A DNA stretch of 41,177 bases, taken from Thermodesulfovibrionales bacterium. Lineage in GTDB: Bacteria > Nitrospirota > Thermodesulfovibrionia > Thermodesulfovibrionales > SM23-35. The notes under the pieces were generated by a model. It searched no databases and had not been told where the DNA came from. It saw only the letters and a program-made list of their open reading frames with translations. The position numbers and the translations under genes were made by a program. Position 1 is the stretch's first letter; each line of letters begins with the position of its first letter. The DNA is taken from NCBI GenBank assembly GCA_031082155.1, contig JAVHLL010000006.1, positions 64,952 through 106,128 of the forward strand. The letters are read 5' to 3'. Shown here one piece after another: positions 1-11,502 of this stretch.

Positions 1-38
1 AGCTTTGCCACGTCCCCAGCCGTCAAATATTTTTCCAT
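1..38 (-). CDS. Partial helix-turn-helix protein (N-terminus only)
   Basis: Only the first twelve codons are in the window, running off the left edge on the minus strand. They read MEKYLTAGDVAK, which resembles the start of excisionase/MerR-type helix-turn-helix proteins ('YLTxxDVAKLL'). The ATG at 36-38 has a strong ribosome binding site (GGAGG, seven bases upstream). Inference: an element-borne DNA-binding protein or excisionase. Too short to be sure of the family. Confidence 0.55.
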   Translation of the reverse strand, partial: MEKYLTAGDVAK

Positions 39-45
39 TCACTGA

Positions 46-70
46 CCTCCTAATACATAAATGCATTCAG
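46..70 (-). promoter_or_regulatory. Shared island motif, copy a
   Basis: On the minus strand this reads CTGAATGCATTTATGTATTA followed by GGAGG. The same core, ATGCATTTAT then TAG and GAGG, recurs at 1926-1949 (minus) and 10061-10084 (plus), always upstream of and pointing toward a gene of the element. Here it runs directly into the ribosome binding site of the partial helix-turn-helix gene. Likely a promoter or operator recognised by an element regulator (inference). Confidence 0.45.
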
Positions 71-150
71 AAAGATAATTTTTTTAGAATATTTAACGGC
101 GCTTTGATATTTCTAAAAAAATGTGTAAGGCCAATCTAATTGAATAAGAT

Positions 151-1125
151 TTACCTGCCCGAGGAGTTACTTGCGGGCGGACCCGGTTGCATCGTCAAAG
201 AGGGACTATTCTTGCTTGCTGACAAGCTATGTTCCAAACTCTGCTTCTCTTTTTCACTGTCGTAATAGTATACGTTGTGGCTTGTATCGTAAATCAAATC
301 ATGAATTCCGATGAAGTCTTTCCCCCAGTAGCTCCGGATTACCCAACCATCCAGGTAGAACTTTTTGTGATAACAGGCCAATACGAGTTCACTTAGTTCC
401 CTGGAAATCCTCTGTGCTTCATCGTCAAATACAAATATGTTATACAGATGGTTATAGCAGATATCTTTCTCAATGAACGTTTGACCGTTGTTTTCTGTAG
501 AAAACGAAACAAAGACCCATAACAGATAGATGTTATTTTCCCGGTAGTAATTTTCCCGTCCAACGACCGTACTCAGGAATGTTCGGGACCGCTGAATTTC
601 GATGACAATTTCTTTATCACTGAACTTTGCGAATATATCGGGTCTCCGCCACCTCCGGCGATTATTGTAATGCCTGTGAACTCCTTCGACTCTGACGTCC
701 AAAACTGCCTTATCCATGCACAAATGATTTCCGATTGATTCTTTCAGCTCTCTATGTTCCCTACTTTCCTGAGCACCCTTGAATTGTAGTGCCCTTATTC
801 TTGCTTCGGAAAGACGTGATTTTTTGCATTTTACAGGACATGTGCCGCTGTTATGGACATGTTGAAAGTAAAATATTCTCACACCGGCCATAAAACTGAT
901 GAGCTTCACCGGCTGTTTACAGTAGTAGCAGACACATTCAGCATTGCCGGACTGAATTCCCTGTTCGATTCTGTATCTCATCTTGTGGAGTTCTGACTCG
1001 TCTTCATCATATTTCCTGAGGAGTGAGTTAACATCTACTACTGACCCATTCTTTGGAAATCTAATGATGTCTATGCTTCTCTTTATGGGTTCTTTCTTTG
1101 ATATATTTTCTTCTTTATCTTGCAT
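151..1125 (-). CDS. CoiA-like / DUF6035-type protein with zinc-finger and PD-(D/E)XK-like region
   Basis: A 324-residue protein that resembles DUF6035/CoiA-like proteins of mobile elements. An N-terminal Cys cluster (C64, C66, C69, with H89 and C96) looks like a metal-binding finger. It is followed by RRPDIFA (D163) and VIEIQRS (E176, Q178), the arrangement of a CoiA-type PD-(D/E)XK nuclease fold, with an aromatic FYR/NYYRENN-type stretch after it. It starts 13 bases after the stop of the replication-relaxation-like gene, so the two probably share a transcript. The true substrate is unknown; a DNA-processing role is inferred from the fold. The C-terminal 50 residues are low complexity. Confidence 0.65.
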   Translation of the reverse strand: MQDKEENISKKEPIKRSIDIIRFPKNGSVVDVNSLLRKYDEDESELHKMRYRIEQGIQSGNAECVCYYCKQPVKLISFMAGVRIFYFQHVHNSGTCPVKCKKSRLSEARIRALQFKGAQESREHRELKESIGNHLCMDKAVLDVRVEGVHRHYNNRRRWRRPDIFAKFSDKEIVIEIQRSRTFLSTVVGRENYYRENNIYLLWVFVSFSTENNGQTFIEKDICYNHLYNIFVFDDEAQRISRELSELVLACYHKKFYLDGWVIRSYWGKDFIGIHDLIYDTSHNVYYYDSEKEKQSLEHSLSASKNSPSLTMQPGPPASNSSGR

Positions 1126-1138
1126 ATTCCTACCCGTC

Positions 1139-1888
1139 TTACAACGTCAACTTTATCGGATTTTCAGAGAAATTCGTATGCCAATTACACTCGGGGAGAG
1201 CAGTGTAGAAAAATTCCTCGAAAGTAGTAAGATAAACATGTTTTGCGATCCTGGCTGCCTTCAGATACGACTTCAGCAGGCTCAACCGCTTTTGCGTGTT
1301 TATGATAACGAGGGGGGTGTCCTGGAAGTACTTAATCTTTCCGAGAAAATCCTTCCGAGAGATTGTTCCACAATCTACTTCAAGATTGAAGTCCAGTATG
1401 TGTTTATTATCCAGCCCTTGAATTGCGAATATGATGTCCGGCAAGTAAACTCCTTTCCGTAGCTTTTCAATTCTCCTAAGGCCATATTCAAATTGGAGAA
1501 AAGTCAGCTTATAGAGTTTCAGCTCTTCACTTTCTCTATGGATTTTCTTGGCTGCTCCGGCAACATAAAGATCATGCTTGATATTCTTCACATTGGGGTT
1601 GACCCACACATTGGACAGTTCTATCCCCTGATCGTTGGCAACGATCGAAGCAGAGTGACTAGTGAGCGCATATATGCGGTCGCTAACGATCGGACTGCTG
1701 ATCGACCTTATAAGATCCTCCTGCTCAAGTTTTCTCAGCCGTCTCTGCATTACCCTCTCCCGGGTCTTTGGATTCGAATCCGCAGTGTTGAAAAAATACT
1801 TAAAAATATTACCTACTGTGCACGGCCCAAGTGAAAGATGCCTAAGCAGCTCATGATCTCTTTCCGTGAGCAGCAACCCTTTTCTCAT
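1139..1888 (-). CDS. Replication-relaxation-like winged-helix protein
   Basis: The ATG at 1888 is preferred over an upstream in-frame start at 1945 because a GGGAGG ribosome binding site lies six bases before it. The 249-residue product begins with a winged-helix region (LLLTERDHELLRHLSLGPC, then RLRKLEQEDLIRS) and continues with HDLYVAGAAKKIHRE, LPDIIFAI and LEVDCGTISRKDF, the pattern of the replication-relaxation family, which occurs on plasmids and conjugative elements. Those proteins are thought to bind DNA in element replication or transfer. It is followed by the CoiA-like gene. Family assignment is from remembered patterns and is moderate. Confidence 0.65.
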   Translation of the reverse strand: MRKGLLLTERDHELLRHLSLGPCTVGNIFKYFFNTADSNPKTRERVMQRRLRKLEQEDLIRSISSPIVSDRIYALTSHSASIVANDQGIELSNVWVNPNVKNIKHDLYVAGAAKKIHRESEELKLYKLTFLQFEYGLRRIEKLRKGVYLPDIIFAIQGLDNKHILDFNLEVDCGTISRKDFLGKIKYFQDTPLVIINTQKRLSLLKSYLKAARIAKHVYLTTFEEFFYTALPECNWHTNFSENPIKLTL

Positions 1889-1925
1889 CGTATCCTCCCT
1901 ATACTTCTTTGTGTACCTATTTGTG

Positions 1926-1949
1926 CCTCTACTTAATAAATGCATCTAG
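1926..1949 (-). promoter_or_regulatory. Shared island motif, copy b
   Basis: Minus-strand reading: CTAGATGCATTTATTAAG then TAGAGG. It shares the ATGCATTTAT core and TAGAGG end, with identical spacing, with the copy ahead of the integrase. It lies about 38 bases upstream of the start of the replication-relaxation-like gene. Confidence 0.45.
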
Positions 1950-2165
1950 AAGGGGATTTTTTCGGACTTTGTTGCTTTTCGTCAAAAAAAGTTTTCTTTG
2001 ATCGGTTGGAATGCCTTTAATCCTAAGAATATTGATTCAAAATGAAGAAAATCTAACCCTATTTCAGAGTGCCATGTGTTCCCGGAGGCGAATCCTGAAT
2101 ACCATCGTCAAAGCATTGATTGAAAATCTATGGCCGAAGACATGGAGGGAACGCCTCTTATTGTC

Positions 2166-2194
2166 TTGTCAAAAAGACCGCTCCATAGTATACT
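2166..2194 (+). promoter_or_regulatory. Sigma-70-type promoter of mazEF
   Basis: TTGTCA (2166-2171), a 17-base spacer, then TATACT (2189-2194). Both hexamers are five of six matches to consensus with ideal spacing. The predicted start of transcription falls inside the palindrome just downstream. Confidence 0.75.
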
Positions 2195-2211
2195 TATTGT
2201 AGATACAATAA
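2194..2211. promoter_or_regulatory. Palindromic operator of mazEF
   Basis: A perfect inverted repeat, TTATTGTA-GA-TACAATAA, starts on the last base of the -10 box and ends just before the ribosome binding site. MazE/AbrB-type antitoxins bind such palindromes and repress their own promoter, so this is the likely autoregulatory site. Confidence 0.7.
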
Positions 2212-2223
2212 AGGAGGTAGAGC

Positions 2224-2466
2224 ATGAACACAAAGATACAGCAATGGGGAAATAGTCTGGCTTTGAGAATTCCCAAGGCATTTGCCGTGGAAGCAAATCT
2301 TCACAAGGGAGCAGTCGTTGACGTTTCCGAAGAAGGCGGTAAAATTATCCTCACTCCCGTCAAGAAAAGGAAATTTACTTTAGAAGGTTTATTGTCAGGG
2401 GTGACAAAGGAAAATATCCATGGTGAGATTAGCACTGGGAAGAGGGTTGGCAAGGAAATATGGTAA
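2224..2466 (+). CDS. mazE: MazE-type antitoxin (SpoVT/AbrB fold)
   Basis: An 80-residue protein whose N-terminus, MNTKIQQWGNSLALRIPKAF, is the typical AbrB/MazE swapped-hairpin DNA-binding domain; the C-terminal part would wrap and neutralise the toxin. A full AAAGGAGG ribosome binding site sits six bases upstream. Its last seven bases overlap the toxin gene, the usual translational coupling of this family. Expected to repress its own promoter through the palindrome at 2194-2211. Confidence 0.93.
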   Translation: MNTKIQQWGNSLALRIPKAFAVEANLHKGAVVDVSEEGGKIILTPVKKRKFTLEGLLSGVTKENIHGEISTGKRVGKEIW

Positions 2467-2804
2467 AACGGAGAGGTTTTATTCCCAATCGGGGGCATAT
2501 CGTTTGGATAGATTTTGACCCACAGTCTGGCCACGAGCAGGCAGGGAGGAGACCAGCCTTTGTAGTGTCTCCAGCTGCCTACAATGAAAAGATCGGTTTA
2601 GCCTTGTTGTGCCCTATAACGAATCAGGTGAAAGGCTATCCTTTTGAGGTTGCACTCCCAAAAGGGACAAGCGTATCGGGCGTCATTCTTGCAGATCAGA
2701 TAAAAAGTCTCGATTGGAAGAGCCGGAATGCAGAGTTTAATTGCAATGCTCCTTATGATGTCGTTAATCTTGTCATAGAGAAACTGGCTACACTTTTATC
2801 GTGA
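2460..2804 (+). CDS. mazF: MazF-type mRNA interferase toxin
   Basis: A 114-residue PemK/MazF-family toxin. The N-terminus RGHIVWIDFDPQSGHEQAGR followed by RPAFVVSP is the family signature, with the conserved Arg-Arg-Pro; the second half has CPITNQVKGYPFEV and SVSGVILADQIKSLDW, covering the catalytic Thr/Ser and the dimer strand. Known members cleave RNA at short sequence motifs when the antitoxin is lost. The pair probably stabilises the mobile element or acts in stress or phage defence (inference). Confidence 0.94.
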   Translation: MVKRRGFIPNRGHIVWIDFDPQSGHEQAGRRPAFVVSPAAYNEKIGLALLCPITNQVKGYPFEVALPKGTSVSGVILADQIKSLDWKSRNAEFNCNAPYDVVNLVIEKLATLLS

Positions 2805-2947
2805 CAATCCCCTGCTGACTTCAAGTGATGTTTTATTAATTAAGAAACACTACCACCACAAATGTGTGCAGCCTGAAGGAAATATAATTCTTTTCGGAGT
2901 ATCCTGACACCTCTCAATTAGTTAAATGTGTGCTAATCGTATTTTCT
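2805..2947. other. Intergenic spacer between mazF and the OMPDC operon
   Basis: AT-rich spacer between the stop of the rightward mazF and the stop of the leftward operon. I see a TTAATTAA palindrome near 2835 but no clear terminator hairpin with a T tract on either strand. Confidence 0.4.
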
Positions 2948-3670
2948 TTAGGAAGCTAATATTTCAAGTTTTAGTAATTCAATCATACTAGCTAAATCAT
3001 TATGCTGCAGAAATTTTCTTCCTAAAATAAGAAGATCTGCTCCAGCTCTTACAGCTTCTTGAGGTTTTATTGTTGTCTTATAAAAATCAGGAGGAACCCA
3101 TGAAGGCCTTATAAGAGCAGCTAGTAAAAAATCTTCCCTGCAAACTTTTCTTACCTTCGCGATCTCAAAGGCCGGTATCATAATACCATCAAAACCAGCT
3201 TTTTGTGAATTTATTGCTAAGAATTTTACATACGAAGAAAATGAATGGTTTACTCCCAGCTCTTCATTTAGGTTTTTTTGAGATAAACTTGAAAGAACAG
3301 TTACACCTAATATTATTGGTTTTTTAAGATTCTCTTTTAGGCAGAATTCAGACACTTTTCCTAAACTGTTTTTAATATTTTCAGCACCGATTGTAGAATG
3401 CACACTTATCATATAAGTACCTGCCTTTGCAGCATTTATGATTGCATTTGTGATCGTATTAGGTATGTCGTTAAGTTTAATATCCAGGAAAATTTTTTTA
3501 TCTAGTTTGTTAATTGCTTCGACAATATTTAAACCTGATGAAATGAATAGATCAAGTCCAACTCTGAAAATATTAATATGTTCGCGGAAAGTTTTTACAA
3601 CTTCTAAGGCAATATTATAATCTGATGTATCTAACGTAAGTATAATTCGTTCTTGCGGATTAATGAACAT
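2948..3670 (-). CDS. OMP decarboxylase-superfamily protein, compact paralogue 1
   Basis: A 240-residue (beta/alpha)8 protein of the orotidine-5'-phosphate decarboxylase superfamily. It keeps the first Asp (LTLD, D14), the catalytic D63-x-K65-x-x-D68 in FLDIKLNDIPNT, and the phosphate-loop end AGADLLILGRKF. The strand-2 Lys of OMP decarboxylases (usually KVG) is Arg here (FRVGLDLF, R36), and the usual 'GIRP' segment is LIRP. It is the last gene of the leftward operon, 22 bases after the cupin. Known family reactions are OMP to UMP, or sugar-phosphate aldol/decarboxylation in HPS and KGPDC. The actual substrate here is unknown. Confidence 0.8.
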   Translation of the reverse strand: MFINPQERIILTLDTSDYNIALEVVKTFREHINIFRVGLDLFISSGLNIVEAINKLDKKIFLDIKLNDIPNTITNAIINAAKAGTYMISVHSTIGAENIKNSLGKVSEFCLKENLKKPIILGVTVLSSLSQKNLNEELGVNHSFSSYVKFLAINSQKAGFDGIMIPAFEIAKVRKVCREDFLLAALIRPSWVPPDFYKTTIKPQEAVRAGADLLILGRKFLQHNDLASMIELLKLEILAS

Positions 3671-3692
3671 ACATCTTCCGTATTGGTTCAGA

Positions 3693-4064
3693 TTAAACTG
3701 CTTCTTCGATCAGTATCATGTCCGAAATCTGCCAAGATGGAGAGTTAATAGAAAGGAATCTTAACATTTTTTTATTACTTGTATTTCTCATTCGATGTTT
3801 TTTGCCGATAGGTATAGCTATACTATCTTCCGGCCTGACCCTATGCCATTTTCCATCTATCTCTATTTCACCTTCTCCATCAAGTATGAAGTATATCTCC
3901 TCCAACTTATTATGATAGTGCAGATTTGCAATTTCTCCAGGGCTAAAAATACATAAGGCAATTTCCACATTCTGCAGCTCCGAATTTTCAGTATCTAATA
4001 TCTTATAGATAATTCCCCCACATCCATCCTCAATCTTATTTAGAACTTGCCAGTTGATGATCAT
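3693..4064 (-). CDS. Small cupin-domain protein
   Basis: A 123-residue single-domain cupin. Motif 1 is visible as LHYHNKLEEIYFILDGEGEI (two His and Glu for metal binding plus the Gly-rich turn) and motif 2 as PIGKKHRMRN. Cupins of this size bind a metal and act as sugar or nucleotide-sugar isomerases, dioxygenases or ligand sensors. The gene overlaps the end of the upstream OMPDC-like gene by 29 bases, so it is part of the same translation unit. A role acting on the product of the neighbouring enzymes is plausible but not shown. Confidence 0.85.
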   Translation of the reverse strand: MIINWQVLNKIEDGCGGIIYKILDTENSELQNVEIALCIFSPGEIANLHYHNKLEEIYFILDGEGEIEIDGKWHRVRPEDSIAIPIGKKHRMRNTSNKKMLRFLSINSPSWQISDMILIEEAV

Positions 4065-4731
4065 ATTTCCTTAATCCCACTGAAATCATTTTATGGGCTG
4101 TCATTGCTGCCTCCCCTGGTGTCGTTCCTAATTCGTTAGGACTGTATATTGATCGTCCAATAATTTCGTAATCAGCACCTGCAGCGATTGCACTTCCAAT
4201 CTGAGGTCCTTGTATACCGATACCACATGAAATAATTATTAATCTATTATTTACTTTCTTTTTAATCGCTGATATTCTTTCGTGTTTAGTCCCGGGAACT
4301 TGAATACCATCACAATTAAGAGTCAATGCAAGCTCAATATACTCATCAGCCATTTCATCGGTGATCAATCCTGATGGATGCGTAAACTCTGTAAAAAGGA
4401 ATATCATTTTTGATTTAAAGATAGCTTTGCATGTTGATATAGTTTCATCTCCGACGGGCCCGCAAATGATCATTCCGTCAGCTCCATTTTCTAAGGCTTT
4501 TCTTGATAGTTTCTCCGATATGTATGGGATATCCATTAATTTTAAATCTACAATTAGCGGTTTATTAGTATATGTTTTTAATTCTTTAAGAATATTCCAT
4601 CCAAATTCGTAAAGAACCAAATTCCCTATTTTTATAGCCTCAATATAAGGCGCAACCTGTTTTATAACGTCAAAAAGTTGCTTCTTTTGTTCGATATCAG
4701 CCGCAAAGATAATTCCCTTAGATTCTAGCAT
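4036..4731 (-). CDS. OMP decarboxylase-superfamily protein, compact paralogue 2
   Basis: A 231-residue protein resembling the short archaeal-type OMP decarboxylases. All catalytic residues appear present: FAADIEQ (D12), AIKIGN (K34), VDLKLMDIPY (D62, K64, D67), a GIGIQGP segment where these enzymes bind phosphate, and AGADYEIIGRSIY near the end. It overlaps the paralogue upstream by 14 bases and the cupin downstream by 29. Of the compact members it looks most like a competent decarboxylase; substrate is inferred only. Confidence 0.82.
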   Translation of the reverse strand: MLESKGIIFAADIEQKKQLFDVIKQVAPYIEAIKIGNLVLYEFGWNILKELKTYTNKPLIVDLKLMDIPYISEKLSRKALENGADGMIICGPVGDETISTCKAIFKSKMIFLFTEFTHPSGLITDEMADEYIELALTLNCDGIQVPGTKHERISAIKKKVNNRLIIISCGIGIQGPQIGSAIAAGADYEIIGRSIYSPNELGTTPGEAAMTAHKMISVGLRKYDHQLASSK

Positions 4732-5554
4732 CTCCCTTTAAAAATCCGATCACTACACCAGTCATTGTCATGGATGTGGAAACAAAAATATTTACCAACG
4801 GTGGTTCTGCAATTTTTTTTATTGCGTCGGGCAACAATATTGTTAAAAGAAGACTTAAAATAAAGGCTACTCCTGCATATATTCCTATCTGGCCAAGAAG
4901 TTTTTTTACGTCCTGTTTGTCAAGAAGTCTTTGATATTCTCTGCCCTCCATAATAAGATCTGCCCCATGCTTTATCGCTTCATCTTCTTCATTTTTATTG
5001 GCTATTCCTACCGCAATTATTTTCGTTTTATCATTTACTCCATCTTTTACTGAATTCTTAATCAGTTGTATTCGTTCTGGTCGTTCCCCTGGGCCAATAA
5101 TACCTTCCAGCTGAAAATCTTTTGCCATTTTACAGAAATCTTCTAAATGCTCGCTTGTATAACCACCAGCATTATGGCTCATTTCAGAAACGAGATAAAT
5201 GTGTAAATAAGGAGTCCGAGCTTTAATATGTTTAATAACTTCTTTCCCAACAAAACCTTGTATGACAATACCATCCGCTCCTGCAGCGTAAACTTTTTCA
5301 GAAATGTCTGCGGCTATATGTGGAACGTCGGCGATTTTAAGATCACATATGATAGGAAGCTTTGTTATTTTCTTAAGCTCATTAATTATAGATAAGCCAT
5401 TATCTATGATACTAATAAGACCTATTTTAATTGCATATGTATGCCTTATTAAATCAACTCGCTGTTTTAATTTTCTTGCATATCTGAGCGCTGTTTTTCT
5501 TTTTTTCGTATCGATAGCACATATCTTATATTGTTCTCCGAAATTATTTACCAT
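4718..5554 (-). CDS. Membrane-anchored OMP decarboxylase-superfamily protein
   Basis: A 278-residue fusion. Residues 10-215 are an OMPDC-like barrel with CAIDTKK (D15), AIKIGL (K43), CDLKIADVPH (D71, K73, D76) and GADLIMEGRE. After the barrel come two hydrophobic helices, about 223-241 (IGIYAGVAFILSLLLTILL) and 253-272, ending with KGDARI. I know of no standard PyrF with membrane helices. It overlaps the type-2 PyrF gene upstream by seven bases and paralogue 2 downstream by 14. The barrel would sit in the cytoplasm on the membrane; the purpose is unknown. Confidence 0.8.
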   Translation of the reverse strand: MVNNFGEQYKICAIDTKKRKTALRYARKLKQRVDLIRHTYAIKIGLISIIDNGLSIINELKKITKLPIICDLKIADVPHIAADISEKVYAAGADGIVIQGFVGKEVIKHIKARTPYLHIYLVSEMSHNAGGYTSEHLEDFCKMAKDFQLEGIIGPGERPERIQLIKNSVKDGVNDKTKIIAVGIANKNEEDEAIKHGADLIMEGREYQRLLDKQDVKKLLGQIGIYAGVAFILSLLLTILLPDAIKKIAEPPLVNIFVSTSMTMTGVVIGFLKGDARI

Positions 5555-6495
5555 TTTAGAAGTTTTGCTTTCTGCAGTTCTTTATTTATTTCTTTATTCA
5601 TTCTTATTACTGCTTCTCGTGCTGCATCGGCAAATTCATGATCTTTAAATCTTTTGTCACTTTTAAAAGCATAATTTATGCTCCGTGAAGCAGCGATTAG
5701 AGCGCCATATCCATCTGTATTAAAGCAGTTTATAATATCAGAAGCTTTTCCACCTTGAGTCCCGTATCCGGGAACCAAGAAGTATGCTTGGGGCATTAGC
5801 TTTCGTAATATCTTTGCTTCCTTGGGGAAGGTGGCTCCGACTACGGCCCCAACGGAGCTATACCCTGAATTACCTTTACTATTGTTTCCCCATTCATTAA
5901 CGAGTCTCGCAACCATTTCATACAGTTTCAATCTTTTCCTATTGTATACTACCTCCAGATCTTGCAGATCCTTAGACGATGGATTAGACGTCTTTACTAA
6001 AACAAAAATACCTTTCCCATATTTATTCACATCATGCAAAAAAGGATTTATTCCATCGGCGCCAAGATAAGGGTTAACCGTAATAGCATCAACATCGTAA
6101 ATTGATACACTGTGAGTGGCCAGCTTTACTCTTCCAATGTGTCCCTCTGAATAGGCAGTGGCAGTCGATCCTATGTCGTTTCTTTTCGCATCTTCTATAA
6201 CAATCAACCCTTTTTGCTTTCCGTATTCAACGGTCTTTATAAAAGCCTTTACTCCTTCAATGCCATAGCGTTCATAGAATGCAATTTGAGGTTTTATTGA
6301 TGGCACAAGCTCATACACAGCATCAATGAGCTTACAATTAAACTCTGAAATGGCAGCTCCGACGCCCTTTATAGATACTGCGTAAGCTTTCCTGAGACTT
6401 TGAGGAAGCTTGTCATAATCTGGATCTAAGCCAACAATCACATGACTTTTTTTCTTTTTAATCTCTTTAATTAATTTATCGGCAAAATTTTTCAT
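5548..6495 (-). CDS. OMP decarboxylase, type-2 PyrF-like
   Basis: A 315-residue protein matching the longer 'type 2' PyrF group: VIVGLDPDYDKLP (D24), PSIKPQIAFYERYG (K68) and IEDAKRNDIGSTA (D102, K104, D107), with VVGATFPKEA and LVPGYGTQGG near the phosphate site. In that group the enzyme converts OMP to UMP in the last step of pyrimidine synthesis. It is embedded in an element-borne operon with three other OMPDC-like genes, so it may not be the housekeeping enzyme. It begins nine bases after the SAH-hydrolase-like gene. Confidence 0.85.
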   Translation of the reverse strand: MKNFADKLIKEIKKKKSHVIVGLDPDYDKLPQSLRKAYAVSIKGVGAAISEFNCKLIDAVYELVPSIKPQIAFYERYGIEGVKAFIKTVEYGKQKGLIVIEDAKRNDIGSTATAYSEGHIGRVKLATHSVSIYDVDAITVNPYLGADGINPFLHDVNKYGKGIFVLVKTSNPSSKDLQDLEVVYNRKRLKLYEMVARLVNEWGNNSKGNSGYSSVGAVVGATFPKEAKILRKLMPQAYFLVPGYGTQGGKASDIINCFNTDGYGALIAASRSINYAFKSDKRFKDHEFADAAREAVIRMNKEINKELQKAKLLKW

Positions 6496-6503
6496 TAGAT
6501 ACT

Positions 6504-8306
6504 TTAATTGAACCTATAATGTTTATCGGCTATTTTATCTTGCAATTCAATTAATTCCTTTTTCTTATGCTGGAGTTGTTCAGAGTCATCTTTCCTCTCC
6601 CTGAACTCTACAATATCCTTTGGTAAGAGTTTACTATTCCTGACCAAGAATTTAGCACTTTCGAAAAGAATCGTAGGAATAAATTCTATCGCCTTATCTG
6701 GAACGCTCTCACTATCAAAGAAGTTCACAGGATATCCATCTGCCAGCAGAGTTACAGCGTTACCAGAGCTTATTATTTCATACTTTACGCCAATGCCTGG
6801 AACATTAAGAACTTTATCAGTATTAATAAGGCTCATGAATTCAGAGTATTTTATCCCAAGCCTTTTTGAAGAAGCACTGACGAAATAACTGTTGTTTTGA
6901 AAAAAATTAATCGCGTCAACACCAGCCCATTCTCTACCGGTAGCTTCTATTATAATTCGACAATTTTTTATCAACTCCTCTGCAGTATCGGCGATATTGT
7001 ATCCCTCAGCTTTTGCAAAACTCAAATCAATTTTTTTGTCTGAAAAAATGGTGACATTTGCTCCCATGTCCCTGAGGGTTTTTACAATTCTGGAACCAGT
7101 GTTACCAAAACCCGCTACCCCAACCTTTTTCCCTGCAATTTCAAGATAGTCTTTACCTAATAATAGTGCAATATTATGGTAAACTGCTCTTCCAATCAAT
7201 GGACTTTCCAGCCGCAATTTGATGTCAGATCTTGCAACATCCATAATTGGAATACAGTAATTGCGCTTACATTTGAGAAGTTCTTTATAAAGCTCCTCAT
7301 CTTTCCAAATGCCATTAGCAGTTTGTTCAACAGCTCCGACAAAATGTTCTGAACATTCATAGTATTCCTTATGCAAGATTGGAACAGCATATCCTCCATC
7401 TTCAATAATTAAAATTTGCTTGCCTGTCTCCATAGCAAGATCAATGGCTTGTAACATTGTTAGCCTTACTTGATCATCAAAAGGATAAGTTTGAGGTATT
7501 GTCAAATTTTTATAATTGCTGAGTTTCAGATATTTGACTGTCTTATCCTTAGTTGAATAGGGAATTCCTATGATAAAAATATTGGATTTATCAGCTTTGT
7601 TTTGCTCAAGAGCATCAACTAAATGAATAAAATCGCTCAATAAATGTTGAATAAGGATAATTATATATTCGGAAAAATCTACTTTGTCATTGTCTGCAAA
7701 AAAATGTAAGGTTGAAAGTGTTTTTGCTGTTGAAAGTACAAGGAGTCTTATTCTAACGGGATTGTTTGTGTCAAGATCAATATCATTGAAGATGATTGAA
7801 TCGGATGTGATGAAATAATCCTTATTTTTTTCTGCCTTGCGATCTCCAATATGAAAAAAATATGGTCTATTTTCTATAGGAATGCCTTGAATTATTAGTT
7901 TGTATCTGGTTTTTTCAGGAAAGGTAAATGTAAAAAAACTATCGTCAATCGAAGAGACAAAATTTTTCCACTTGCAACGAATCTGTATTTCTAATTTTTT
8001 TCCAGGCTCTACCTCTCCTGAATAATTAATTCGTACTATCTTTGAATAGTTTTCATAATCTTCTTTAAATGAACCTGGGTGAGTTATCGAATTAATGCTT
8101 ACTGTAAAATTTTCACAGGTAGAGAAAAAAGCAATATCGATTTTTTTAAAATCGACAGGAAAACTCTTGAGTCCTTCATTAACATAGGTTATGGTTCTGA
8201 CACAATCGGCATCCTTTAGGTGTAGGAAATATTCATCTTTAATGGATACCGAATATTTGATTTCATCAATCGGAGTCTGGGTAATCTTTAGTGGTGATTC
8301 AGACAT
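6504..8306 (-). CDS. S-adenosylhomocysteine-hydrolase-like protein with novel N-terminal domain
   Basis: A 600-residue protein. Residues about 285-560 follow the SAH hydrolase order: IIEDGGYAV (D303, cf. DDGGD), VGAVEQTANG (cf. SEETTTG), PIMDVARSDIKLRLESPLIG, the NAD Rossmann loop GVAGFGNTGS (G399, G401, G404), IIEATG, and LLADGYPVNF (cf. LLAEGRLVNL). The catalytic Lys is kept (K363) but the Asp, Asn and Cys that follow it in true SAH hydrolases align with Glu, Ser and Gly. Residues 1-200 are strand-rich, perhaps a beta-sandwich, and not recognised. The C-terminal 35 residues are a charged helix. An NAD-dependent redox-type reaction on a nucleoside-like ligand, or binding only, is inferred. 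Confidence 0.72.
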   Translation of the reverse strand: MSESPLKITQTPIDEIKYSVSIKDEYFLHLKDADCVRTITYVNEGLKSFPVDFKKIDIAFFSTCENFTVSINSITHPGSFKEDYENYSKIVRINYSGEVEPGKKLEIQIRCKWKNFVSSIDDSFFTFTFPEKTRYKLIIQGIPIENRPYFFHIGDRKAEKNKDYFITSDSIIFNDIDLDTNNPVRIRLLVLSTAKTLSTLHFFADNDKVDFSEYIIILIQHLLSDFIHLVDALEQNKADKSNIFIIGIPYSTKDKTVKYLKLSNYKNLTIPQTYPFDDQVRLTMLQAIDLAMETGKQILIIEDGGYAVPILHKEYYECSEHFVGAVEQTANGIWKDEELYKELLKCKRNYCIPIMDVARSDIKLRLESPLIGRAVYHNIALLLGKDYLEIAGKKVGVAGFGNTGSRIVKTLRDMGANVTIFSDKKIDLSFAKAEGYNIADTAEELIKNCRIIIEATGREWAGVDAINFFQNNSYFVSASSKRLGIKYSEFMSLINTDKVLNVPGIGVKYEIISSGNAVTLLADGYPVNFFDSESVPDKAIEFIPTILFESAKFLVRNSKLLPKDIVEFRERKDDSEQLQHKKKELIELQDKIADKHYRFN

Positions 8307-8317
8307 CAGATGCGAAC

Positions 8318-9004
8318 TCAGTAGACAGAAGTAGAGGAACTTCCACCGAAATCTACCAACTGCATGATAAATCTATCTTCTATCCCTGTTTTATAGTGCT
8401 CTTTTAACTCCGAGCCCTTCTTTTCACGTATCGTTTTGGCGGTATAGATTGACAAAAGTTCTATACCTTTTCGCCCCAAGTTCACAGTCGCACCCTGATC
8501 CCTATCAATAACAACTAAAGCATAAGGTACTTTGGCGCCGAGATCCCAGACTTTTTCTGCCGCTTCGAAAATGGTCCAACCTATTGTTGCAACATCACTG
8601 AGTATTATCACCCGGTCGTCTTTATTTAGCGAGCCCTTAATGGTACCTCGTAGCAGACGCTTTTTAGATCTAATTATTATCATTTCCTTCTCGATCAGTG
8701 TTCCGAGCGTAGATCTAATCGAGATTAAACCAACAGGCCCAGCACCACCTTTTTCAATAAAGGCGACTTTATTAAATTCATGACTTTTTGATAATTGATT
8801 GATTTTATCTGCAAGAAGTTTAGCTAAAGCTGTCGCATTATTTTTATTTTCCATTAAGTAGCTATCTATATCAAAATAATGCGCGCTGGGTAGACCACCT
8901 ATAAGCGTATACTCACTATTCCGTAAGCTCAATCCAGCAATTTTTAGACAAAGAGAGGCTTCCTCAGGGTCATCCCAATTACATAACTCTTGTTTATAAA
9001 ACAC
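8318..9004 (-). CDS. Orotate phosphoribosyltransferase-like protein
   Basis: A 228-residue type I phosphoribosyltransferase. Starts with GTG at 9004, supported by an AAAGGAGG ribosome binding site. The hood and N-terminus (EYTLIGGLPSAHYFDIDSYL) resemble PyrE (cf. 'F.L.SG..S.yY.dl'), and IIRSKKRLLRG occupies the catalytic flexible loop. The PRPP loop is degenerate: VIILSDVATIG (S136-D137 instead of Glu/Asp-Asp, and Ile where a Thr is usual). OPRT makes OMP from orotate and PRPP; with OMPDC-like genes next door the substrate may be a related base, or catalysis may be weak. It lies 18 bases after the unknown 134-residue gene. Confidence 0.72.
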   Translation of the reverse strand: MFYKQELCNWDDPEEASLCLKIAGLSLRNSEYTLIGGLPSAHYFDIDSYLMENKNNATALAKLLADKINQLSKSHEFNKVAFIEKGGAGPVGLISIRSTLGTLIEKEMIIIRSKKRLLRGTIKGSLNKDDRVIILSDVATIGWTIFEAAEKVWDLGAKVPYALVVIDRDQGATVNLGRKGIELLSIYTAKTIREKKGSELKEHYKTGIEDRFIMQLVDFGGSSSTSVY

Positions 9005-9022
9005 TTAGCCCTCCTTTCTAAT

Positions 9023-9427
9023 TTAAGAACTCACCATTGTTTTATTTAAGAAATTGATGCTATCAGCATAGTTGCTTACCAAAGCAGATAAATTATCCAA
9101 CAATCTCTGCGCATTATTCTCTTCACCACATTCTCTCCCTATCTTAGTCAATATTTCTGAAATCTTGTTATACAAAGAAATCCTTTCCTTATGCAATTGC
9201 AAATCATAGGGAGTATCTCCTCCAAGGTTCAAAAAAATATCATCAATAAAAGAACAAATGAAAAAACAAATAAATCGGTCTTTGTTATGCTGAGACTCAA
9301 GAAAAATTCGCGAGCAAAAATGGCGTAATTTACGTAAAGCTGTTATATTAGGATGCATTGGATCCGCTTCTAAAGAAGCTTTGAGCTCATCGGCCGCCAT
9401 AATTATATTGTCATAAATACTTTCCAT
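9023..9427 (-). CDS. Unrecognised helical protein, first gene of the OMPDC operon
   Basis: A 134-residue protein that looks wholly alpha-helical, with a hydrophobic, aromatic central stretch (DRFICFFICSFIDDIFL) and three cysteines. I do not recognise the family. It is the promoter-proximal gene of the leftward eight-gene operon, 18 bases before the OPRT-like gene. Its ribosome binding site is weak (AGAG). It could be a small regulatory or complex subunit; no function can be assigned. Confidence 0.65.
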   Translation of the reverse strand: MESIYDNIIMAADELKASLEADPMHPNITALRKLRHFCSRIFLESQHNKDRFICFFICSFIDDIFLNLGGDTPYDLQLHKERISLYNKISEILTKIGRECGEENNAQRLLDNLSALVSNYADSINFLNKTMVSS

Positions 9428-9511
9428 GCTATCAATTTACTCTACAAAATAAAAAAGAGCTATATTTTAGAGTATGTTCGATAAAGTAGTCAAATGCAAA
9501 GATTGACTGTG

Positions 9512-9709
9512 TCATGGAAAAACTTCCTCGTGATTTTTCCCGAGTGCTTTTGCGACTTTTAACTGAGTATGCCTTCTTGTTGACAAGCCATTTTCCATCT
9601 TAGATATTGTCTGATATGCAACGCCTGCAGCTCGTGCAAGTTCAGCGATAGACCAAGGCTTGGCCTCTCTAAATTCTCTTACTCTATTTCTTCCTGTTTC
9701 CTTAACCAT
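9512..9709 (-). CDS. Xre-family regulator (Cro/CI helix-turn-helix)
   Basis: A 65-residue single-domain regulator: WSIAELARAAGVAYQTISKMENG is the helix-turn-helix, followed by TQLKVAKALGKNHEEVF, the standard fourth and fifth helices. It stands 84 bases ahead of the eight-gene operon in the same direction and downstream of the AT-rich palindrome at 9770-9803. Likely represses itself and perhaps the operon (inference from position). Confidence 0.9.
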   Translation of the reverse strand: MVKETGRNRVREFREAKPWSIAELARAAGVAYQTISKMENGLSTRRHTQLKVAKALGKNHEEVFP

Positions 9710-9742
9710 GCTTAATATTAATTTTTAAAACTATCTTTTAAT

Positions 9743-9771
9743 TGTTTATCATAAATTTAATTAAATGTCAA
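9743..9771 (-). promoter_or_regulatory. Promoter candidate for the Xre regulator
   Basis: On the minus strand, TTGACA (9771-9766) is followed after 17 bases by TAAACA (9748-9743). The -35 box is perfect; the -10 box is weak. The -35 box overlaps the arm of the 13-bp inverted repeat by two bases, suited to repression. Confidence 0.5.
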
Positions 9772-9803
9772 TATAAATTAATTAATATTGATTAATTTAT
9801 ATT
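9770..9803. promoter_or_regulatory. Perfect 13-bp inverted repeat, probable operator
   Basis: AATATAAATTAAT (9770-9782) and its exact complement ATTAATTTATATT (9791-9803) flank an eight-base spacer. It abuts and overlaps the -35 box of the Xre gene. Likely the binding site of that regulator. No T-tract after a GC stem, so not a terminator. Confidence 0.6.
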
Positions 9804-10060
9804 TGGAGCTTCGGACTATGAGTTGCGCTGAAATTATCGATTATCGACAAGTAGTTAAAGTATAGACTTCTATGTGCTATTGAGATCATTCGTATCATAC
9901 ATACAAATAATCCTTCGGACTGTAACAAGTCAGGTCAATTTTCCACAAACTTAGGAAAAGAAATCTTAAATCATCTGATTTACCTAATCATTAATCCCTC
10001 TTTTGATACCCCGTAAATATTTTTTGAGAATCTTGCAGCTGAAACAAAAAAAATTGTCTT

Positions 10061-10084
10061 CTCAATGCATTTATACATTAGAGG
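10061..10084 (+). promoter_or_regulatory. Shared island motif, copy c
   Basis: CTCAATGCATTTATACAT followed by TAGAGG, pointing toward the integrase. It matches copy b (1926-1949) in length and in both conserved blocks, and copy a (46-70) in the core. Confidence 0.45.
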
Positions 10085-10131
10085 AGGTTAAAGCCTCGGT
10101 GTGATAAATGGTGAAAAGGAGGGGTGAAGTA

Positions 10132-10164
10132 ATGGTAAACTATAACTGTATTTTCAAGCCTTAA
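10132..10164 (+). CDS. Possible ten-codon leader peptide before the integrase
   Basis: ATG at 10132 reads MVNYNCIFKP and stops; an AGGAGGGG ribosome binding site stands seven bases ahead, stronger than most in the window. An in-frame ATG at 10108 would give 18 residues. It lies between the shared motif and the integrase. It may be a translated leader that tunes integrase expression, or a chance frame. Confidence 0.3.
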   Translation: MVNYNCIFKP

Positions 10165-10210
10165 TTGGTCCCTTAATGCCTCAAAGAGGCAGGAAAGGAG
10201 GATAGTTTAG

Positions 10211-11329
10211 ATGGGACTATTTAAGCGAAAGAAGAATGGCAAATTCACGAATGTATGGTGGATGTGTTTTACGGCGGACAGTGTTCAGCACCGGAAGAGC
10301 ACCGGCACAAGTAATAAGAAATCAGCGCAAAAGATACTGAACAAGATTGAGACACAAATTGCAGAGGGGAAATGGCTCGACATCGATACTGCAAAGTTCC
10401 ATGACTTTGACGAGTTGATGCAAAGGTACCTTAATGAACATTCGAAGATCAATAAAGCCGCCTCTACATATGAGAAAGATCTCAGCATGAAAGCTAACCT
10501 CGAAGAAACCTTTAAGGGGATGCCCCTCGATAAGATTACAAGCAATGCAATTGTGTCCTACAAGAACAAGAGGCTCACAGAAGGCGTTGCGCAAAACACA
10601 GTCAAAAACGAGCTTGGGATGCTCAGAAATGCTTTGAACATTGCCCAACATATCTGGAAGTGGATTAGAGAGAACCCTTTTTCAGGATTGAAATTGGGGC
10701 TCAAGGCAAATGAGATCGACCGCTGGCTGAATCCTGAGGAAGAAAAACTTCTTCTCACGGCTGCTGAAGACAAATTGTTCGGGACACTTCCTGACATCAT
10801 TCTTTTGGACCTTCATACTGGTTTGTCGCAAGAGGAAATCCTGAACTTGAAGTGGTCTCAAATCGACCTTACCAGCAAAACCCTGAGAACCACACGGAAA
10901 AAGACAAAGAAAAAGGATAGGCCTACTCGTATCATCCCTCTCAATGCGGCTGCAGTCGAGATTCTCACGCGCAGAGCAAAGGTTCGGTCGCTGTCAGGTT
11001 ATGTATTCTTCAATACAGCGGGCAATAAGATTGATGCCGGGAAATTGAAAAAGACATTTAAAAAAGCACGTGAAGACTCAGGTATTGCCTCTTTTCGCTT
11101 CCACGACCTTAGGCATACTTTTGCAACCAGGCTTGCTCAGAGAGGCGTCGACCTCTACAAGATTGCAAAACTGCTGGGGCACGAAGACATATCAACGACT
11201 CAGCGGTACGCTCATCATTGCTCCGAGTCTCTCAGGGATGGCGTTGAGATCCTCGATAATAAGGCGACGTCAGTGCTTGAAGAAAAGCCCGCAACATTGC
11301 GTGAAAAGAGGAAAAGAAAGAAAGGGTGA
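10211..11329 (+). CDS. int: Tyrosine recombinase / integrase with atypical Arg-I position
   Basis: A 372-residue tyrosine integrase: arm-binding N-terminus (1-55), SAM-like core-binding domain (about 65-155), catalytic domain (about 170-345). H298 and R301 (FHDLRHTF), H324 (LLGHEDIS) and the nucleophile Y333 (RYAHH) are in place. The first catalytic Arg is missing: the usual TGLRxxEI reads TGLSQEEI, with S206 (TCG codon). Arg-I is normally essential. GGAGG ribosome binding site upstream. It adjoins the 3' end of tRNA-Arg, the standard layout of a tRNA-integrated element. The last 25 residues are a basic tail. Confidence 0.93.
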   Translation: MGLFKRKKNGKFTNVWWMCFTADSVQHRKSTGTSNKKSAQKILNKIETQIAEGKWLDIDTAKFHDFDELMQRYLNEHSKINKAASTYEKDLSMKANLEETFKGMPLDKITSNAIVSYKNKRLTEGVAQNTVKNELGMLRNALNIAQHIWKWIRENPFSGLKLGLKANEIDRWLNPEEEKLLLTAAEDKLFGTLPDIILLDLHTGLSQEEILNLKWSQIDLTSKTLRTTRKKTKKKDRPTRIIPLNAAAVEILTRRAKVRSLSGYVFFNTAGNKIDAGKLKKTFKKAREDSGIASFRFHDLRHTFATRLAQRGVDLYKIAKLLGHEDISTTQRYAHHCSESLRDGVEILDNKATSVLEEKPATLREKRKRKKG

Positions 11330-11334
11330 ATGAA

Positions 11335-11356
11335 TTTTATCACACTTTTATCACAC
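11335..11356 (+). repeat. Tandem 11-bp repeats, possible integrase arm sites
   Basis: TTTTATCACAC occurs twice without a gap (11335-11345 and 11346-11356) between the integrase stop and the tRNA, and its complement GTGTGATAAA lies before the integrase near 10099. Short direct repeats beside an attachment site are typical arm-type integrase sites. Confidence 0.45.
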
Positions 11357-11373
11357 CAGGGGGTTAAGGCAAT

Positions 11374-11413
11374 AATTGAGGAGTCATACCATCAATATAA
11401 CTCCTCGATTTTA
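11374..11413 (+). terminator. Hairpin after the integrase
   Basis: GAGGAGT (11378-11384) and ACTCCTC (11400-11406) form a seven-pair stem, extended by A-T pairs, with a 15-base loop, followed by GATTTTATT. It stands between the converging integrase and tRNA genes. A weak intrinsic terminator is likely. Confidence 0.5.
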
Positions 11414-11425
11414 TTAGGTAAAAGA

Positions 11426-11502
11426 TGGTACCCCCTGCAGGAATTGAACCTGCGGCACCAGGTTTAGGAAACCTGTGCTCTATCCGACTGAGCTAAGGGG
11501 GC
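11426..11502 (-). tRNA. tRNA-Arg (anticodon CCT)
   Basis: A full cloverleaf on the minus strand: acceptor GCCCCCT/AGGGGGT (first pair G-T), D-arm GCTC...GAGC, anticodon stem CAGGT/ACCTG with loop TTCCTAA, T-arm GCAGG-TTCAATT-CCTGC, discriminator A, encoded CCA at 11428-11426. The 3' end faces the integrase, so this gene is the probable insertion site of the element. It decodes AGG. Confidence 0.97.

Follow-up and report, generated by a model that had tools for sequence, protein, structure and literature searches.

Organization of the locus

The window, by which we mean the whole stretch of 41,177 nucleotides that was analyzed, contains one part of a complete 39-kb integrative element in a tRNA-Arg(CCT) gene of a Nitrospirota bacterium. 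The element extends over G000:C56:37343-76391, is bounded by perfect 48-bp repeats of the 3' part of the tRNA gene at C56:37343 and C56:76377, and occupies positions 1-11473 of the window. A minus-strand operon on the element encodes, in order, an XRE-type HTH protein, a small helical protein, a PRTase, an SAH hydrolase (SAHH)-like protein, the OMP decarboxylase homologs OMPa, OMPb and OMPc, a cupin and a fourth homolog, OMPd; from the PRTase gene onward, the spacing ranges from overlap up to approximately 25 bp. The G+C content of the operon part is 33-38%, which is lower than the 45-56% of the window sequence past the tRNA gene. Scans for promoters and terminators performed no better than chance.

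Table 1. Features of the integrative element in the window
Feature	Position in window	Strand	Remarks
CoiA-nuclease-like protein	151..1125	-	With DUF6035 and DUF7830; on the element
MazF endoribonuclease	2460..2804	+	NF007386 5e-39; adjoins the operon end
OMPd, fourth OMP decarboxylase homolog	2948..3670	-	
Cupin (Cupin_2)	3693..4064	-	65-72% identity among the loci having the cupin
OMPc, OMP decarboxylase homolog	4036..4731	-	Catalytic motif intact
OMPb, OMP decarboxylase homolog with C-terminal hydrophobic segments	4718..5554	-	
OMPa, OMP decarboxylase homolog, PyrF_sub2 type	5548..6495	-	TIGR02127 3.1e-86
SAHH-like protein	6504..8306	-	600 aa, ATG start; β-rich N-terminal domain (aa ~1-190) and SAH-hydrolase-fold NAD core
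N-terminal domain coding region	7707..8306	-	aa 1-200; no known family; fold matches weak only (Z <= 6)
Divergent orotate-PRTase-like protein	8318..9004	-	TIGR00336 2.2e-18, below cutoff
Small protein, 134 aa	9023..9427	-	Looks helical from its sequence; no family
XRE-type HTH regulator, 65 aa	9512..9709	-	Probably the opening gene of the operon or its regulator
Tyrosine integrase of the island	10211..11329	+	PF00589 6e-37; beside the window att repeat
att repeat, 48 bp	11426..11473		3' part of tRNA-Arg CCT; same as C56:76377; other copy 39 kb away

Defense genes and toxin-antitoxin-like genes are numerous on the element. It carries a Type IIG R-M enzyme (E 1.8e-288), and its further genes include DrmD/PLD-helicase-like, SoFic-like (Fic), PDC-M41A, AbiEi-like and MazF genes. 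When PADLOC-DB models were compared with the cassette proteins, no meaningful match was obtained for any operon protein.

The products of the operon depart to different degrees from their housekeeping counterparts. In the PRPP loop of the PRTase, the DD and TTG of PyrE are replaced by SD and TIG. The catalytic motif is complete in OMPa (K68, D102-K104-D107 and the phosphate-binding R271) and in OMPc (K34, D62-K64-D67 and the phosphate-binding R193). Hydropathy shows hydrophobic segments toward the C-terminus of each of the three OMPb copies inspected; the window copy keeps the Lys, DxKxxD and Arg, whereas the copies of the related genomes G234 and G331 have DxKxxE and have lost the phosphate Arg. 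In OMPd, the first catalytic Lys is replaced by Arg and the TPGIR loop is altered, and its identity of 46% with the PyrF of the host suggests that it is probably a redeployed PyrF. A separate host PyrF (201 bits) and PyrE (141 bits) are encoded elsewhere in the genome, and the host has a canonical AhcY of its own (locus L002), away from the cassette, which is therefore accessory. This conserved nucleotide-enzyme operon, which the initial annotation of the SAHH-like gene missed, is the stronger lead.

Structure and family assignment of the SAHH-like protein

The SAHH-like gene had been annotated with the right coordinates and without a strand; it lies on the minus strand (8306..6504), and the plus strand of window 6504-8306 contains many stops. 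A 600-codon open frame that is conserved at the level of a family far exceeds what chance would produce. In Pfam, the protein matches AdoHcyase_NAD (3.6e-8, above the cutoff) and otherwise just general Rossmann families. The NCBIfam model ahcY (TIGR00936) matches residues 219-541 at 3e-17, but its score of 62.5 bits falls far short of the cut-off, which is 497.6, and NF004005 gives 73.6 bits, which does not reach its cut-off of 275.

In the predicted model (11-sequence alignment, mean pLDDT 75), residues 18-190 are nearly all strand and residues 198-560 form the SAHH core, which may also be placed at ~205-560. The core of the predicted model aligns with the AhcY structure 7zd8 with a Z of 41.4 and an rmsd of 3.1 over 378 residues (VIA-align). 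This match and that to AdoHcyase_NAD bear out the SAHH-like core that had been proposed from the sequence, and the DGG (303-305), the Lys (K363, corresponding to human K186) and the NAD loop (GFGNTG, 399-404), all said to be kept, are indeed present, the loop conforming to GxGxxG as G399-F-G401-N-T-G404. The C-terminus, which in AhcY is the tail closing the NAD site of the neighbor, aligns poorly and differs between relatives.

When the full model was compared with the viral library, the matches to ITIH-like proteins (E 3.6e-9) had TM-scores of 0.17 and an rmsd near 19 Å and were discarded. A phage search with the SAHH-like protein returned a single weak match, and among viral contigs the single-sequence query found no close relatives and the profile found only three weak SAHH-like loci; as far as these searches show, it is not a phage gene.

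An altered active site shared by a clade

AhcY residues are given below in human numbering. In the alignment with the AhcY of the host (L002) and other AhcYs, His55, Asp131, Glu156 and Lys186 are kept as H221, D303, E327 and K363, whereas Asp134, Asn181, Asp190, Asn191, His301 and His353 are replaced by Tyr306, Ala358, Glu367, Ser368, Ser480 and Val535, respectively, and the ETT motif of AhcY reads EQT (Q328). In the stretch that follows the Lys, AhcY has D190-N191...C/T195 and the SAHH-like protein has E367-S368...G372. The comparison with true AhcY for which the initial annotation had called thus confirms the altered active site, including the change of Asp-Asn to Glu-Ser, and extends it by D134 to Y306, ETT to EQT, N181 to A358, H301 to S480 and H353 to V535. 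The Cys-to-Gly change that had also been listed holds in that Gly372 is present, but position 195 is not diagnostic, as the true AhcY of the host is also non-Cys there.

The altered site is not peculiar to this one protein; it is the signature of a widespread SAHH-like clade. Most of the substitutions are common to relatives in Nitrospirota, an archaeal Methanomicrobia bin, Thermoplasmata, Bacillota and Streptomyces. In the maximum-likelihood tree, this clade is split from true AhcY with a support of 100/100, and the window protein and three relatives with the same fusion group together at 99/97. D131, E156 and K186 are kept in each of the 13 clade members of the tree alignment, and position 190 is Glu in all 13. 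The altered site is therefore a stable clade signature with conserved diagnostic substitutions and not decay.

The N-terminal domain

The N-terminal ~200 residues, annotated as an unrecognized strand-rich domain, returned no Pfam family at a threshold as lenient as E=10 and are almost all predicted β strand, in agreement with that description. A profile of the domain searched against PDB sequences gave a best E of 0.16, which is noise. A structure prediction and fold search of residues 1-200, as had been suggested, named no fold: the single-sequence model is poor (pLDDT 46.6), and the best Z of 6.0, to assorted jelly-roll and CUB-like β domains, is not above the usual background, so a fold assignment was rejected.

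A fused layout of this kind was known to the initial annotation from no family, but it recurs in other genomes. The domain is found with 22-30% identity in three related loci, namely in the Nitrospirota genomes G372 (28% identity over 198 residues, E 2e-20 in a single comparison) and G234 and, in a shorter version, on contig L037; the closest archaeal relative (L036) is without it. This recurrence, in addition to the predicted strands and the absence of a Pfam family, indicates from sequence that the domain is a real, inherited unit.

Occurrence of the cassette in other genomes

Near-identical gene order is observed in two other Nitrospirota families of the class, represented by G372 (without OMPb) and G234 (without OMPd). 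At the equivalent place, an HTH gene is present in both (XRE in G372, MerR in G234), as is a homolog of the small protein (48% identity in G372, 26% in G234). The genes for PRTase, SAHH-like protein, OMPa and OMPc are found together on contig L037, from a bin labeled Deltaproteobacteria, and G331 contains the OMPa-OMPb-OMPc trio alone. G284 (L010:102-2488) contains a decaying cassette with a truncated SAHH-like gene, an IS-like transposase and an intact cupin (67%). The cassette is rare: when fragments are counted, about 5 of the 230 genomes in the class have it, and in the phylum to which L037 belongs the figure is 1 of 395. A literature search in which few subscription papers were covered found no description of the gene set. 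The SAHH-like protein is real and conserved, a novel form of the SAHH family within an apparently undescribed cassette.

R-M genes lie beside the cassette genes of G331 (TdeIII, 1.2e-37, and a methyltransferase), and HsdR is located ~1 kb beyond the cupin in G284. In G372 and G234, the flanking stretches that were read contain no R-M genes, and methyltransferase loci are numerous in these genomes; therefore, the linkage of the cassette with R-M genes is suggestive only. The R-M genes of Types I, II and IIG in the neighborhood of several loci would fit an enzyme that still processes SAH or a close analog in support of the DNA methyltransferases on the same mobile elements. However, a canonical AhcY is present in the host, several substrate-side residues of AhcY are replaced, and the tightly linked partners are pyrimidine-nucleotide enzymes and not methyltransferases, all of which makes such a role highly improbable.

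Members of the SAHH-like clade also occur in other settings. In Bacillota (L041:7345-9041 and L046:7429-9050), they directly follow and overlap a STAS anti-sigma-factor-antagonist gene, and a gene that looks like a MATE-type exporter and then a HAMP-type membrane protein come next, forming a conserved, signaling-like set. On a Streptomyces plasmid (NZ_CP109170.1; L004:5215-12972), a clade member is accompanied by a GNAT, a methyltransferase, a 652-aa PRTase-domain protein and a HAD hydrolase, in a cluster that looks like nucleoside biosynthesis. In Thermoplasmata (L039:1346-5814), a stand-alone member is followed by two type-II-like DNA methyltransferases. Additionally, short SAHH-like proteins are encoded beside an HD-domain protein and an MFS transporter in L003:6262-7918 and about 40 Lactiplantibacillus plasmid records; the L003 copy does not retain Asp131. 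A Vibrio nigripulchritudo plasmid (L006:7079-11152) carries an AhcY-like gene with a nucleoside hydrolase, an adenosine deaminase, a ribokinase and a nucleoside transporter, possibly a nucleoside catabolic operon.

Possible function of the SAHH-like protein

AhcY chemistry opens with the NAD-dependent oxidation of the ribose 3'-OH. The SAHH-like protein resembles AhcY (TIGR00936) in fold, in the NAD loop and in the equivalents of Asp131, Glu156, Lys186 and His55. It differs in D134Y, N181A, D190E, N191S, H301S and H353V, in its extra N-terminal domain, in forming a clade of its own and in scoring far under the equivalog cut-offs. The residues for 3'-OH oxidation are kept or conservatively changed. 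Among the residues that recognize the substrate or serve in elimination and water addition, several are neither. The reading that we favor, tentatively and at somewhat less than even odds, is that of a NAD-binding nucleoside or nucleotide oxidoreductase that diverged from AhcY, is not an SAH hydrolase, and performs one step of an accessory mobile nucleotide cassette with a possible stress or anti-phage role.

A precedent is provided by the angustmycin dehydratase AgmF, an SAHH homolog that does not accept SAH and instead uses its bound NAD to dehydrate a different nucleoside; its His56, Asp129, Lys184, Asp188 and His299 are all essential by mutation (PMC8599513). AgmF also acts in a pathway with a PRTase, and its His, Asp and Lys are kept in the SAHH-like protein; Asp188 and His299, in contrast, correspond to Glu367 and Ser480. 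Catalysis by the SAHH-like protein is not assured, because these two positions, equivalent to Asp190 and His301 and essential in AgmF, are Glu and Ser here. The earlier suggestion that the protein may oxidize a different nucleoside fits both the kept oxidation residues and the AgmF precedent; for its substrate, which we infer, a pyrimidine nucleotide or nucleoside is likeliest because the PRTase and several OMP decarboxylase homologs are fixed partners.

AgmF could also be the precedent for a biosynthetic, not defensive, cassette whose product is a diffusible modified nucleoside, like the products of nucleoside-antibiotic clusters. The clustering of the Streptomyces relative with a PRTase, a HAD hydrolase, a methyltransferase and a GNAT agrees with this, as does the MATE-type exporter gene (assigned by eye) after several Bacillota relatives. 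The window operon, however, is without an exporter or resistance gene and the surrounding element is rich in defense genes, so we consider a biosynthetic cassette unlikely.

The replacement of the D190 and H301 equivalents also bears on whether the protein is an enzyme. In a non-catalytic NAD-bound scaffold or sensor, the latter being the other option raised by the initial annotation, the cofactor and the nucleotide pocket would be kept and the N-terminal domain would signal to other gene products, which would suit the fusion to a β domain so far found nowhere else, the place of the Bacillota relatives directly after a STAS gene, and a neighboring OMPb that, judged by its hydropathy, is membrane-bound and that has partly degenerated in relatives. 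Nevertheless, despite its wide divergence, the clade preserves Asp131, Glu156, Lys186 and the Gly-rich loop and invariably has an acidic residue at position 190. Such conservation suggests that chemistry is under selection, and we regard a purely sensory protein as doubtful.

A proposed role for the cassette

In the favored oxidoreductase reading, the SAHH-like protein would bind a nucleoside or nucleotide and oxidize the ribose 3'-OH, which is the first half of the SAHH reaction, by means of the equivalents of Asp131, Lys186, Glu156 and His55 and with Glu replacing Asp190. The loss of His301, His353, Asn181, Asn191 and Asp134 would accommodate another substrate, and the normal elimination and water-addition steps would be gone. 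For the cassette as a whole, we infer a substrate, an order of steps, a membrane read-out and a defense role as follows. The divergent PRTase may load a base onto PRPP, OMPa and OMPc, with their complete catalytic motifs, may act on the resulting nucleotide, and the SAHH-like protein and the cupin may modify it; the membrane-attached, partly degenerate OMPb could then read out or anchor the product. The β-rich N-terminal domain would most likely serve in assembly or ligand binding, which is a guess, and the neighboring genes point to a stress or anti-phage role.

A more specific form of this proposal is possible, if rather doubtful: an undescribed anti-phage or conflict system for producing or sensing a modified pyrimidine nucleotide, in which the PRTase and the OMP decarboxylase homologs would set the nucleotide, the SAHH-derived enzyme would oxidize the ribose, and the membrane-anchored OMPb would be the read-out or effector. 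Anantharaman reportedly described, in 2012, Ter-associated operons that are centered on a PRTase and predicted to produce a nucleoside-like metabolite in a conflict setting; in the window operon, no Ter-type, ATP-grasp or CitE gene was recognized. All four neighboring homologs belong to the OMP decarboxylase/HUMPS superfamily (PF00215), and OMPa and OMPc keep its DxKxxD and phosphate Arg. What sets the cassette apart within the superfamily is that three to four such genes are clustered with those for a PRTase, an SAHH-like protein and a cupin, that OMPb has membrane segments and (in relatives) lost residues, and that OMPd has Arg for Lys. A read-out role for OMPb is conceivable because an OMP-decarboxylase-like domain is listed as a putative effector in caspase-linked NTP-dependent conflict systems (PMC7159879); this likeness is a lead only, and a caspase/EACC1-type component is not seen in the cassette.

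If this interpretation is right, the fold of SAH hydrolase and the housekeeping pathway that leads from orotate to UMP would have been re-used together on mobile elements to make or sense an unusual nucleotide, which would represent new chemistry for nucleotide-based bacterial immunity or signaling. Additionally, it would provide a function for a large unnamed clade whose members appear in databases as "adenosylhomocysteinase" or "oxidoreductase".
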